A stretch of 32,329 nucleotides of DNA from Flavobacteriales bacterium (lineage in GTDB: Bacteria > Bacteroidota > Bacteroidia > CAIKAF01): NCBI GenBank assembly GCA_026936045.1, contig JAIXKU010000169.1, positions 1 to 32,329 on the forward strand, given 5' to 3'. Below the pieces are notes generated by a model. That model was not told where the DNA came from. It searched no databases and saw only the letters and a list, made by a program, of their open reading frames with translations. The first letter of the stretch is position 1, and each line of letters opens with the position of its first letter. Both the position numbers and the translations under genes were made by a program. Below are positions 2,681 through 7,419 of the stretch, one piece after another.

Positions 2681-3757
2681 ATGAAAATCGTCATCCGCGT
2701 TGACGCTTCACTACAAATTAGCACCGGCCATGTTATACGATGTTTGACTTTGGCAAATACTTTACGAGAGAAAGGTGCCTATTGCGAATTTATTTGTCGT
2801 GAACATAAAGGCAATTTGATTCACTATATTGAGCAACACGGGTTTACAGTTCATCGCCTATCAACCCGTGCAGAATTCATAATTGACCATTCTGCCTTGA
2901 GACATGCCGCTTGGCTTGGTTCTACTCAGCTACAGGATGCACAAGAATGTCTAACGATTCTTCAAGAAAACAAGCCTGATTGGCTTATCGTTGATCATTA
3001 CGGAATTGATAAAAAATGGGAGCAATTATTACGACCGTATTGTAAAAAGATTTTTGTAATCGATGATTTAGCCGATCGTCAGCAAGATTGTGATTTGCTA
3101 TTGGATCAAAATTTGATCGAAAATATGCAAAGTCGCTATATTGACTTAGTGCCACAACAATGTATAAAATTGATTGGCCCAAAATATGCATTGCTTCAAT
3201 CTGAATACTCTAAGTTACATAAGCAGACTCCTCGAAAAAGGAATCAAGTGCAAAGAATATTCGCTTATTTCGGTGGTGTTGATACGTATAATTTAACTAC
3301 TAAGACAATTACTGCATTTAATCAATTAAAGCAACCAGACATTGAGCTTGACTTGGTTGTAAGCGCTCTTTGCTTGAATTTGGGAACTATAGAAAATTTA
3401 GCCTTACATAATAAACGAATACATTTGCATCAATCATTAGCAAGCTTGGCCCCTTTAATGATACAAGCCGATTTGGCCATTGGGGCGGGTGGTGCTACCT
3501 CTTGGGAGCGATGCTGCTTAGGGTTACCGTCGATAGTTGTTACAGTCGCAGAAAATCAAGAGCCGATTGCAAAAGAGATGCATAAACAAAGATATATAAA
3601 TTGGATTGGCAATGCAAGTGAAGTTGACAGTGAACAGTTACTGACAGCAATGAATAGAGTGATAGATAATGCTAATCTTGACAATTGGTCAAAGCATTGC
3701 GCTACGTTAGTCGATGGGTTAGGAGCTCAACGTGTTGTTGAGGCAATGATGGTGTAG
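2681..3757 (+). CDS. pseG: UDP-2,4-diacetamido-2,4,6-trideoxy-beta-L-altropyranose hydrolase PseG
   Basis: PseG removes UDP from the 6-deoxy-AltdiNAc intermediate of CMP-pseudaminic acid synthesis in the cytoplasm. The 358-residue protein has the usual length for the family and a GT-B-like fold pattern: N-terminal VDASLQISTGHVIRCLTLA with the known catalytic His17, a central AYFGGVDTYNLT motif, and a C-terminal AIGAGGATSWERCCLGLPS nucleotide-binding motif followed by VTVAENQ. The start is one base after the stop of the shortened kinase and there is no clear ribosome-binding site, so translation may be coupled to the preceding genes. A second, broken pseG start lies 750 bases upstream. Composition is AT-rich and matches pseH to pseI, so this copy probably belongs to the incoming block. 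Confidence 0.92.
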   Translation: MKIVIRVDASLQISTGHVIRCLTLANTLREKGAYCEFICREHKGNLIHYIEQHGFTVHRLSTRAEFIIDHSALRHAAWLGSTQLQDAQECLTILQENKPDWLIVDHYGIDKKWEQLLRPYCKKIFVIDDLADRQQDCDLLLDQNLIENMQSRYIDLVPQQCIKLIGPKYALLQSEYSKLHKQTPRKRNQVQRIFAYFGGVDTYNLTTKTITAFNQLKQPDIELDLVVSALCLNLGTIENLALHNKRIHLHQSLASLAPLMIQADLAIGAGGATSWERCCLGLPSIVVTVAENQEPIAKEMHKQRYINWIGNASEVDSEQLLTAMNRVIDNANLDNWSKHCATLVDGLGAQRVVEAMMV

Positions 3758-3778: not shown

Positions 3779-4351
3779 ATGGCATTGATACCTTTAAATA
3801 TAAACAATTATGAGCAAATTCTTGCTTGGCGTAACTCACCTAATGTGCGAAACGCTATGTTTCATTCACAAGAAATTAGTCTTAAAGAACATCAAGAATG
3901 GTTTAAGAAATTACAACGAAACGATGATAGACAATGGTTTATTTTTCAAGATAGCGAAGGTATGGCCCAAGGTGTTGTTTATTTCAATGATATTAATGGG
4001 GTGCATAGTACTGCATTTTGGGGCTTTTATACACGACCGGAAGCTTTGCTTGGTACCGGTATTCGGTTAGCGTTAGAAGCGATTGATCATCTATTTAATA
4101 AATTAGAAATAAATAAGCTATGCGCCGAGGTCCGTAGCGATAATCAAAGATCGCTTATCTTTCACCAAAAAATAGGTTTTATTGAAGAAGGCGTTTTTCG
4201 GTCGCAATACTTTAATGGCCAACAAAGTATTGATATCATACGCTTTGGCATACTATCAGGTGAATGGCCAATACATAAAGAACAGTTACAAAAACGTATT
4301 TGTGAGCTTAGTTTATTGGCAGAGCGCCCCCCCCCCGCCGATATAACATAG
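3779..4351 (+). CDS. pseH: UDP-4-amino-4,6-dideoxy-N-acetyl-beta-L-altrosamine N-acetyltransferase PseH (GNAT)
   Basis: PseH transfers acetyl from acetyl-CoA to the 4-amino group of the PseC product, ahead of PseG. The 190-residue protein is a GNAT: ILAWRNSPNVRNAMFHSQEI near the N-terminus, an acetyl-CoA loop region (LLGTGIRLALEA, about 89-100) and VRSDNQRSLIFHQKIGF (about 118-134), typical of RimJ/PseH-type enzymes. It lies between pseG and the formyltransferases. The last codons contain a run of ten C residues, giving a C-terminal ERPPPADIT. The stop overlaps the GTG of the next gene. With formyltransferases next door, the acyl group finally placed on the sugar may be acetyl, formyl or both. 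Confidence 0.88.
   Translation: MALIPLNINNYEQILAWRNSPNVRNAMFHSQEISLKEHQEWFKKLQRNDDRQWFIFQDSEGMAQGVVYFNDINGVHSTAFWGFYTRPEALLGTGIRLALEAIDHLFNKLEINKLCAEVRSDNQRSLIFHQKIGFIEEGVFRSQYFNGQQSIDIIRFGILSGEWPIHKEQLQKRICELSLLAERPPPADIT
4327..4336 (+). repeat. C10 homopolymer tract in the last codons of pseH
   Basis: Ten consecutive C residues sit 12 bases before the pseH stop. Gain of one C would put pseH into the frame of the downstream gene with no intervening stop (about 402 residues). Loss of one C would end PseH at a TAA at 4344-4346, two residues shorter. A tract of this length is in the range that undergoes slipped-strand changes in other glycan loci. It is also a place where sequencing errors occur. 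Confidence 0.75.
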
Positions 4352-4986
4352 TGATATTAAGTGATTATAAAAGTTGGATTAACCCTGCAATCTATGATTT
4401 GCAAATCGAATGGGCTGAGCTTGGTCATCAAGTATTTTGGCACCATTCGACGAATGAATTACCAGTAGCAGATTTTTGCTTTTGTTTGAGTTTTAGTAAA
4501 ATAATAGATAATAGAATTTTGGCAAACTATAAGCATACTTTGGTGGTGCATGAAAGCGACTTACCACAAGGAAAGGGTTGGTCACCACTCACTTGGCAAA
4601 TTATTGAAGGCAAGAATCGAATTCCGGTGACTTTGATTGAGGCAGCAGAGCAAGTTGATAGCGGTATAATTTATGCTCAGACTTATATTGATTTTGAAGG
4701 CCACGAATTAGTAAATGAATTGCGTAAACAACAAGCACAAGCAACACTATATTTATGTCGTGAATTTATTGATAATTATCCGTTAAGCACCGAAAGCGGG
4801 CAATTGCAACAAGGTGAAGAAAGTTTTTATGCTCGACGAAGACCGGCAGATAGCTTAATAGATATCGACAAATCATTAAATGAACAATTCGATTTGCTTA
4901 GAGTAGTTGATAATGAAAACTACCCAGCTTTTTTTAAGTATAAAGATTTTCAATATCATCTGAAAATTGAAAAAATAAAAGACTGA
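4351..4986 (+). CDS. Formyltransferase-family protein (sugar N-formyltransferase-like) 1
   Basis: The 211-residue protein resembles the formyl-THF-dependent transferase family (PF00551) without being a housekeeping Met-tRNA formyltransferase. The active-site segment reads TLVVHESDLPQGKGWSPLTW (about residues 62-81), followed by VTLIEAAEQVDSGIIY. The catalytic His and the later Asp (VDSG) are present. The Asn that precedes the His by two positions in the classical NxH motif is Leu. Related genes recur in pseudaminic and legionaminic acid clusters, where N-formyl forms such as Pse5Ac7Fo are known, so N-formylation of an amino sugar intermediate is a reasonable inference. The start is a GTG overlapping the pseH stop, and an upstream C10 tract could fuse the two frames. 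It is followed by a second, divergent family member. Confidence 0.75.
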   Translation: MILSDYKSWINPAIYDLQIEWAELGHQVFWHHSTNELPVADFCFCLSFSKIIDNRILANYKHTLVVHESDLPQGKGWSPLTWQIIEGKNRIPVTLIEAAEQVDSGIIYAQTYIDFEGHELVNELRKQQAQATLYLCREFIDNYPLSTESGQLQQGEESFYARRRPADSLIDIDKSLNEQFDLLRVVDNENYPAFFKYKDFQYHLKIEKIKD

Positions 4987-4998
4987 TCAGCTAACTCA

Positions 4999-5700
4999 AT
5001 GAACTTTATTATTGCAACATCTAGGCCTTGGAATAACGTTTTGGCAGAACGTCTTGCCGAAAAGACTGGTTATAAGTTTCACTTGATTACTCAAAAAAAA
5101 GATTTAACTGTTGAGTATATAGAGAAAATCGACCCAAGGTATGTTTTTTTTCCTCATTGGTCTTATATTATTCCAGAAGAAATTCATACTCGCTTTGGTT
5201 GTGTAATTTTTCACATGACTGATTTGCCGTATGGTCGTGGTGGAAGTCCGCTTCAAAATTTAATTCAAAGAGGCCATCATGAAACCAAGATTTCAGCCTT
5301 ACGGTGTACTTCTGAATTAGATGCGGGCCCGATTTACTTAAAACAATCATTATGCTTAGAAGGCTCGGCTTCTGAAATTTTTTTACGAGCAATAGGTATC
5401 ATTGAAAACATGATTGAAGCTATTGTGAAGCAGAATCCTACCCCTCAGCCGCAGAGTGGCGAAGTTACAATTTTTCGACGCCGTAAGCCTTCTGAAAGCG
5501 ATTTGACGAATGCCTCCATTCACTCACTAAATGATTTTTTTGATTTTATTCGTATGCTTGATGCTGAAGGCTATCCTCGTGCGTTTATTAAACTACATAA
5601 TCATAAAATTGAACTTTCGCGAGTCCAAATAGAGCAAGATAAATTAGTTGGCACATTTATTATCTATAAACAAAATGGTATGCCAGAAGAAAATGTATGA
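4999..5700 (+). CDS. Formyltransferase-family protein (sugar N-formyltransferase-like) 2
   Basis: The 233-residue protein is a second formyltransferase-fold member, clearly different from its neighbour. The active-site segment is VIFHMTDLPYGRGGSPLQNL, followed by ISALRCTSELDAGPIYLKQSL. His and Asp (LDAG) are kept, while the Asn two residues before the His is Ile. The C-terminal part (residues about 150-220) contains EVTIFRRRKPSES and FDFIRMLDAEGYPRAFIKL, a small C-terminal domain like the one in the first copy. It overlaps pseI by ATGA, so the pair and pseI are probably made together. It may use a different substrate amine or form a complex with the first copy; neither is shown by sequence. 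Confidence 0.75.
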   Translation: MNFIIATSRPWNNVLAERLAEKTGYKFHLITQKKDLTVEYIEKIDPRYVFFPHWSYIIPEEIHTRFGCVIFHMTDLPYGRGGSPLQNLIQRGHHETKISALRCTSELDAGPIYLKQSLCLEGSASEIFLRAIGIIENMIEAIVKQNPTPQPQSGEVTIFRRRKPSESDLTNASIHSLNDFFDFIRMLDAEGYPRAFIKLHNHKIELSRVQIEQDKLVGTFIIYKQNGMPEENV

Positions 5701-6743
5701 ATTTTAGTATCAATAATCGAGCTATCGGTAAGGGTGAATCCCCCTATATTATAGCTGAACTTTCGGCGAATCATAATGGCGATATTGAGCGGGCTTTTGA
5801 AACGATTAAAGCGGCAAAAGAAAACGGTGCCGATGCTATAAAAATCCAAACCTACACTGCTGATACCATGACCATCGACTGCGATAAAGAAGAATTTATG
5901 ATTCGTGGCGGATTATGGAATGGCTATAAGCTGTATGATTTATACAAGTGGGCCGAAACACCATTTGAATGGCATAAACAACTTTTTGATTACGCGAATA
6001 AAATTGGTATAACTCTTTTTTCGACACCTTTTGACGAAACTGCCGTTGATTTATTAGAGTCTTTAGATGCGCCAGCCTATAAGATTGCCTCGTTCGAGGC
6101 GACTGATTTACCGTTGATTCGATATGCGGCAAGCAAAGATAAACCAATGATTATTTCAACTGGAATGTGTTCCGAAGAAGAGATTGCTGAAATTGTCGAA
6201 ACGGTGCATTCAACCGGTAATCAGCAATTAGTACTACTTCATTGTATTAGTAGTTATCCGGCTCCGATTGAGCAAGCGAATTTATTACAAATGCCAAATT
6301 TAGCAAAACGTTTTAACACTTTGCCGGGTCTTTCTGACCATACATTAGGCACAACAGTAGCCATTGCAGCGGTAGCCTTAGGTGCTTGTGTTATTGAAAA
6401 ACACTTCACGTTAAGTCGAAGTGATAAAGGCCCTGACAGTGCATTTTCAATTGAACCGGTCGAGTTAAAACAACTGTGCGAAGCAACTCATGATGCTTGG
6501 TTGGCACGCGGTAGGATCAGCTTTAAAAGGCAGGCTGTCGAACAAGCAAGCACTCATTTTCGTCGCTCCATTTATTTTGTAAAAGATATGAAAGCGGGCA
6601 CGGTTATTGGTAAAGAACATATTCGTCGAATTCGACCGGGGTTCGGGTTAGCACCTAAATATTATGATGAGTTGATTGGCCGCACTGTAAAGAAAGATAT
6701 TGAACGGGGCACAGCTACCAGTTGGGCTTTACTAAGTGAATAA
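5697..6743 (+). CDS. pseI: Pseudaminic acid synthase PseI
   Basis: PseI condenses the PseG product with phosphoenolpyruvate to give pseudaminic acid. At 348 residues it has the usual length. Domains are a NeuB-type TIM barrel (YIIAELSANHNGDIERAFE at about 17-35, ADAIKIQTYTADTMTI, STPFDETAVDLLESLDAPAYKIAS, STGMCSEEEIAEIV, GLSDHTLGTTVAIAAVALGA, EKHFTLSR) and a C-terminal SAF/antifreeze-like domain from about residue 290 (VKDMKAGTVIGKEHIRRIRPG). The start overlaps the preceding stop as ATGA. The variant signature fits PseI better than NeuB or LegI because PseG and PseH are its direct neighbours. Confidence 0.92.
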   Translation: MNFSINNRAIGKGESPYIIAELSANHNGDIERAFETIKAAKENGADAIKIQTYTADTMTIDCDKEEFMIRGGLWNGYKLYDLYKWAETPFEWHKQLFDYANKIGITLFSTPFDETAVDLLESLDAPAYKIASFEATDLPLIRYAASKDKPMIISTGMCSEEEIAEIVETVHSTGNQQLVLLHCISSYPAPIEQANLLQMPNLAKRFNTLPGLSDHTLGTTVAIAAVALGACVIEKHFTLSRSDKGPDSAFSIEPVELKQLCEATHDAWLARGRISFKRQAVEQASTHFRRSIYFVKDMKAGTVIGKEHIRRIRPGFGLAPKYYDELIGRTVKKDIERGTATSWALLSE

Positions 6744-6747
6744 ACAG

Positions 6748-7419
6748 ATGAATAAAACTGCACTAGTGGTTGCCGCTCATACCGACGACGAAGCACTTGG
6801 TTGTAGCGGCACTATTCTTCGGCATGTTGCTGAAGGCGATACCGTTTATGCTTTATTCTTGGCCGATGGCGTTACCTCAAGGCAAACCAGTGATTCGCAA
6901 GATTTAGAAACCCGAAACAGTGCTGCCGAAAAAGCACGAACAGCGCTTGGCATTCAAAAGAATTTCTATTTAGGGTTACCCGATAACCGGCTTGATACGG
7001 TACCCTTGCTTGATATTATTTATGAATTGGAAAAAGTTATAGAACAAGTACAGCCACAAGTAGTTTATACGCATCATTTGGGCGACTTAAATATAGATCA
7101 TCAAATTACTCACCAAGCAGTGATGACGGCATGTAGACCTCAACCGAATAGTCATATTCATGAAATCTACACCTTTGAAGTAATGTCAAGCACCGAATGG
7201 GCAACACCTGCCACAAATCCGTTTTTGCCAAATTATTACGTTGATATAACAGACTACTTAGAAGCAAAACTTAATGCACTATCTTGTTACAAGAATGAAA
7301 TGCGTTCAGCTCCACATTCACGCACCATTGAACATATAGCCGCTCTCGCTAAGCATCGAGGCTATTCGGTTGGAGTTAATGCTGCCGAGGCGTTTATGGC
7401 GGTAAGGGTGGTAAGGTAG
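6748..7419 (+). CDS. PIG-L/LmbE-family de-N-acetylase
   Basis: This Zn-dependent deacetylase-family protein has 223 residues from the ATG at 6748. An in-frame GTG at 6736, overlapping pseI, would add four residues and cannot be excluded. The N-terminal metal-binding motif AAHTDDEALG (His11, Asp13, Asp14) is the family AHPDDE motif with Thr in place of Pro. The second metal motif is THHLGDLNIDHQITHQ. Family members remove N-acetyl groups from GlcNAc-PI, GlcN-Ins or bacillithiol precursors. Here it directly follows pseI, so it could free an amino group on the nonulosonic acid or a precursor, which might then be formylated by the tandem transferases. That link is inference. It is the last gene of the AT-rich block; the IS remnant begins right after it. 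Confidence 0.82.
   Translation: MNKTALVVAAHTDDEALGCSGTILRHVAEGDTVYALFLADGVTSRQTSDSQDLETRNSAAEKARTALGIQKNFYLGLPDNRLDTVPLLDIIYELEKVIEQVQPQVVYTHHLGDLNIDHQITHQAVMTACRPQPNSHIHEIYTFEVMSSTEWATPATNPFLPNYYVDITDYLEAKLNALSCYKNEMRSAPHSRTIEHIAALAKHRGYSVGVNAAEAFMAVRVVR

Follow-up and report, generated by a model that had tools for sequence, protein, structure and literature searches.

The window, which is the whole stretch of DNA analysed (32,329 nucleotides from a Flavobacteriales bacterium), carries a pseudaminic acid (pse) operon on its forward strand. The operon includes pseG (2681-3757; UDP-sugar hydrolase; TIGR03590, 313 bits, cutoff 153.6), pseH (3779-4351; UDP-4-amino-sugar N-acetyltransferase of the GNAT class; TIGR03585, 131.7 bits, cutoff 93.1), a sugar N-formyltransferase of 211 aa here termed FMT1 (4351-4986; PF00551, 1.7e-9), a second formyltransferase, FMT2 (4999-5700; PF21553, 6.8e-18; PF00551, 1.1e-5), pseI (5697-6743; pseudaminic acid synthase; TIGR03586, 510.9 bits) and a PIG-L family de-N-acetylase (6736-7419; PF02585, 3.1e-27). 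PseG, PseH and PseI all score above the NCBIfam equivalog cutoffs, and overlaps between neighbouring genes are common within the operon. Several related clusters likewise pair a PIG-L de-N-acetylase with FMT2. Most of the remaining window is a glycan locus, with genes for glycosyltransferases, a flippase-like protein and a DegT aminotransferase. A mis-binned contig was considered and rejected, as the window lies at a tetranucleotide distance of 0.17 from the genome's other contigs, inside the range found among those contigs (0.12-0.19), and contamination is not indicated.

Upstream of the true pseG, a short stretch at 1929-2018 is 70% identical to part of that gene, which looks partly duplicated; two pseG pieces likewise occur at locus L038. 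Positions 1-1929 encode a 642-aa fusion, open at the window start, of a PseF-like cytidylyltransferase domain to a class-III aminotransferase. These are separate genes at locus L056.

Window PseH consists of a complete GNAT domain (residues 3-156 of 190, covering model positions 3-155 of 156) and a tail of about 30 residues that bears a C tract. It thus resembles PseH proteins in exceeding the equivalog cutoff and in its placement within a pseG-pseI operon, but differs in its tail, its tract and a potential fusion to a formyltransferase. FMT1 reaches 38.2 bits against PF00551 (Formyl_trans_N) versus a gathering score of 26.1. Its reading frame, taken from base 4312 and modelled with AlphaFold on a 15-row alignment, had a mean pLDDT of 92.6 and matched 1zgh, ArnA, WbkC, VioF and further formyltransferases by Foldseek (E 1e-12 to 1e-15). 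FMT1 shares fold and PF00551 domain with sugar N-formyltransferases (the ArnA transformylase domain, WbkC, VioF, Rv3404c; 1zgh) but is shorter, has V for the Asn of the Asn-x-His motif and has its N-terminus behind poly-C. Within the FMT1 family, all aligned members share His80 and Asp116 (alignment A2 numbering), and each has V or I at the Asn position, two residues upstream of the His. The usual Asn is also apparently absent from 1zgh, which is named as a methionyl-tRNA formyltransferase but may instead act on sugars.

Reading frames through the C10 tract

A homopolymer of ten C occupies positions 4327-4336 (+) at the pseH-FMT1 junction, a few codons ahead of the pseH end (...GCAGAGCG-C10-GCCGATATAACATAGTGATATTAAGTGAT...). 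The initial annotation had located such a tract at 4320-4360, just before the pseH stop and an overlapping GTG, and these coordinates are correct. As assembled, the C-terminal tail of PseH reads ...LLAERPPPADIT*, and the TAG stop of pseH shares one G with the GTG at 4351 that begins FMT1 as called (TAGTG). Every tract length from C7 to C13 was translated to recompute the products. Lengths C10 and C7 give PseH of 190 and 189 aa, respectively, and the ADIT tail is kept at C7, C10 and C13. Lengths C9 and C12 give proteins of 188 and 189 aa that end ...PPPPI*, two and one residues shorter. At C11 and C8, PseH and the formyltransferase are fused in frame into proteins of 402 and 401 aa (...ERPPPRRYNIVILSDYKSW...), with a junction peptide of ...LLAERPPPRRYNIVILSDYK in the fusion versus ...ERPPPADIT in the split form. 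The frames therefore bear out three earlier statements: that the genes are separate as written, C10 ending PseH at 190 aa with the one-base TAG/GTG overlap; that one extra C would yield a fused acetyltransferase-formyltransferase of about 402 residues; and that one C fewer would trim PseH by two residues.

The C10 tract is the sole run of at least nine C or G across the 2.79-Mb genome, where the remaining runs of at least eight are three C8. A simple base-composition model predicts about 0.3-0.5 runs of at least ten C or G per genome, so one such run somewhere is unsurprising and the tract by itself is not proof. What is surprising is the exact place of the C10, together with a C14 at the equivalent junction of a second genome.

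GTG 4351 is the sole ATG, GTG or TTG at the FMT1 N-terminus, and the frame is open back to 4312. Homologues without a fusion start with M-K-I-x-I-L or similar, and the window aligns to them as Y-N-I-V-I-L, in which V is the GTG; the codons TAT AAC ATA (Y-N-I) at 4342-4350 on the forward strand, before the GTG, align with the M-K-I start. In the AlphaFold model, strand 1 comprises N-I-V-I-L (residues 12-16) with the GTG at residue 14. Thus, initiation at the GTG would drop the first two residues of a core (Rossmann) strand. A separately made FMT1 is therefore probably defective, with the enzyme produced only as a fusion, and the split state would be formyl-OFF, not another functional state. Annotators should be wary of a downstream formyltransferase called from this GTG, which is probably half a gene, truncated at the N-terminus.

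A second tract and the wider formyltransferase family

Loci were gathered by protein and profile searches of about 1,100 genomes, genome contigs and viral contigs, and 29 FMT-family loci, the window included, were compared. A PseH-like domain lies directly upstream of FMT at two of the 29, the window and a genome of the same phylum (G398), each with poly-C at the junction (C10 and C14). No C or G run of at least six was present from -200 to +60 at any of the 26 other readable junctions, a count that leaves out L054, whose junction is missing, and includes L038, which is disrupted there. By exact count, the probability of a 2/2 versus 0/26 association arising by chance is 1 in 378.

G398 shows the arrangement PseG-GNAT-C14-FMT, and its proteins are 51% (FMT) and 27% (GNAT) identical to those of the window. 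Its 515-aa fusion of PseG and GNAT terminates within the C14 as ...GFNDIPPPPP*, and the formyltransferase frame continues through the tract. Lengths C13 and C16 would give PseG-GNAT-formyltransferase proteins of 735 and 736 aa, and C12 and C15 a third ending. Fusion thus needs opposite shifts in the two genomes, +1 in the window and -1 in G398. The G398 sequence holds no ATG, GTG or TTG between C14 and FMT strand 1, and the nearest start is a TTG upstream of C14 in a frame different from that of the GNAT. Taken together, the internal GTG of the window and the missing start in G398 point to the fusion as the likely working form of the formyltransferase. The G398 GNAT reaches 52.1 bits against TIGR03585 (cutoff 93.1), covers model positions 9-134 of 156 and lacks the last strand. 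As it falls below the cutoff, we term it PseH-like rather than PseH, and its acetyl activity appears doubtful. The tract is separated from FMT strand 1 by three residues in the window and eight in G398, and lies about 30 residues past the GNAT core in the former and at its edge in the latter. Because these distances to both domains differ, separate origins of the two tracts are more likely than inheritance of a single one.

Beyond this junction, C or G runs of 9-11 in G398 break the frames of an FkbM methyltransferase (L116 1529-1538), a C-methyltransferase (L115 1451-1459) and a SAM methyltransferase (L117 1569-1579), and a similar methyltransferase is broken at C12 in G122, a genome of the same genus as G398 (L146). 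Genes for FkbM and other methyltransferases are typical phase-variable classes. The broken genes of this lineage may form a phase-variable glycan gene set or reflect homopolymer assembly errors.

In other pse clusters, the formyltransferase stands directly between pseG and pseI, with pseH not found (L031, L037, L053, L062), or adjoins FMT2 in clusters with pseG and pseI where pseH was likewise not found (L036, L066). A further cluster (L114) has the plain order pseG-pseH-pseI and no formyltransferase. That FMT takes over the position of PseH in relatives is most simply explained if both enzymes act on the same 4-amino group. FMT would then most likely compete with PseH for this amine on a UDP-sugar of the Pse pathway and formylate it. 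For another sugar, a Geobacillus formyltransferase likewise takes the place of an acetyltransferase (PMC5109656). Fixed fusions are also found: PseG-FMT of 567 aa (L031) and, in a Prochlorococcus record, PseG-unassigned segment-FMT of 695 aa (L033 1543-3627). The window resembles both in the potential placement of FMT as the C-terminal domain of an upstream Pse-pathway enzyme, but the L031 and L033 fusions are fixed and have no C tract. They suggest that FMT is viable as a C-terminal module. The middle segment of the L033 protein, about 110 residues without a Pfam hit, may be a decayed GNAT, and an A8 run lies at its junction.

Searches of 97 other genomes of the order of G398 and 395 genomes of the class of the window revealed no third GNAT-FMT locus, and no orthologue of the locus was present in the three other species of the window's genus. 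Plasmid and phage collections contained only remote formyltransferases (at most 32% identity), and a PseH scan of viral contigs gave no match. Stand-alone FMT-family copies with no Pse cluster nearby were seen on viral-classified contigs (L068, L069, L070, L071, L072, L073).

A candidate fusion switch and its alternatives

The pseH-FMT1 junction likely constitutes a phase-variable fusion switch. Slipped-strand mispairing in the C run would alter its length by one. At lengths of 8, 11, 14 and so on, a single acetyltransferase-formyltransferase of about 402 residues would be made; at 9, 10, 12, 13 and so on, PseH would stop just past the tract and FMT1 would be absent or weakly made by re-initiation at the GTG that truncates strand 1. 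One length in three would thus fuse FMT1 to PseH and the other two would leave PseH alone. With PseH present in every state, the sugar would always be completed, and the tract would set whether formyl competes with acetyl. The population would then alternate between N-acetyl and N-formyl forms of pseudaminic acid at one position, N7 of the nine-carbon sugar. That C10 slips during replication and that the fusion is used are inferences, as are the substrate and the effect on the glycan; we give roughly even credence to C10 being a slipped-strand contingency tract that would set translation of FMT1 as the C-terminal half of PseH, toggling formyl activity and its competition with acetylation. The initial annotation had proposed a toggle between split and fused enzymes. 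Its frames are exact and the distant C14 locus favours a hypermutable switch, but the split state probably lacks a second working enzyme, given a GTG that cuts strand 1 and a relative with no start behind C14. A formyltransferase switched ON and OFF is thus more likely than a pair of active enzymes that alternates between split and fused forms.

A serious though less likely alternative is a constitutive PseH-FMT1 fusion encoded by C11, with the C10 a miscount of sequencing or assembly and C13 or C16 likewise the true length in G398. Both genomes are fragmented assemblies, and housekeeping genes are broken at comparable tracts in related assemblies: accC, identified by sequence motif, at a G10 in G001 (L127 1501-1510) and rng at a C10 in G398 (L119 1826-1835). 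Assembled tract lengths may therefore be wrong, and a miscount would also fit internal or missing FMT starts that imply the fusion as working form, as well as the existence of fixed FMT fusions to upstream partners. Against a miscount, most other C9-C11 coding tracts in assemblies of the genus are in frame (lepA C11, valS C10, dnaB C9, rsmA C9 and others, named by inspection). Nor would a constitutive fusion explain why two distant lineages keep a poly-C linker free of interruptions: in the window, only 24% of proline codons are CCC, a usage at which the chance of three consecutive CCC in a PPP stretch is about 0.014.

Alternatively, pseH and FMT1 could be separate, translationally coupled genes, with FMT1 starting at GTG 4351 and the tract incidental. 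The one-base TAGTG overlap is a plausible coupling arrangement in an operon where overlaps are common, and the number of long C or G runs expected from composition allows for an incidental tract. We nevertheless regard such coupling as unlikely, since a start at the GTG would cut strand 1, the equivalent junction of G398 has a C14 where a start codon is absent, and the tract is associated with PseH-like-FMT junctions at 2/2 versus 0/26 elsewhere. Less probable again is transcriptional slippage or ribosomal frameshifting on the C run, which would yield PseH and some fusion with no heritable switching. RNA polymerase tends to slip on homopolymers, a single added C in the mRNA would suffice, and PMC4256274 and PMC1088944 document two products made by transcriptional frameshifting; however, the slippage motifs described in PMC3711429 are runs of A or T, and the window and G398 would require opposite shifts (+1 and -1).

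Phase variation of sugar-modifying genes through homopolymers is well known. A survey of Campylobacter lists as phase-variable a formyltransferase-domain gene, CFT03427_1556, with a G9-10 tract (PMC6321876). The proposed fusion switch resembles the simple sequence repeats (SSR) of that phasome in a G or C homopolymer of similar length within a glycan-modifying gene, where the long frame returns at one length in three. It differs in that the window tract lies between two enzymes, that the acetyltransferase survives every state and only the appended formyltransferase would be toggled, and that the tract is known here from a single assembled length. As in SSR phase-variable loci, the window has a long mononucleotide tract at the end of a coding frame, one-unit changes alter the protein, and a tract recurs at the equivalent G398 junction. 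Within the limited library searched, no report was found of an acetyltransferase-formyltransferase fusion toggled by a tract, and an equally limited search found no paper on homopolymeric phase variation in Chlorobium.

More tentatively, two distant lineages may each have gained poly-C between the acetyltransferase and the formyltransferase as a hypermutable linker, through which a competing enzyme would be reversibly joined to the first; heritable acetyl/formyl switching on one sugar position would then proceed by domain fusion, not simple gene inactivation. If true, a slip of one base would change the acyl group on a surface nine-carbon sugar while the sugar itself is kept, and the switch would act on the chemistry of one position, not on whether a glycan is present. 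The locus would then be an example of homopolymer phase variation beyond the well-studied pathogens, with reversible gene fusion as its mechanism.
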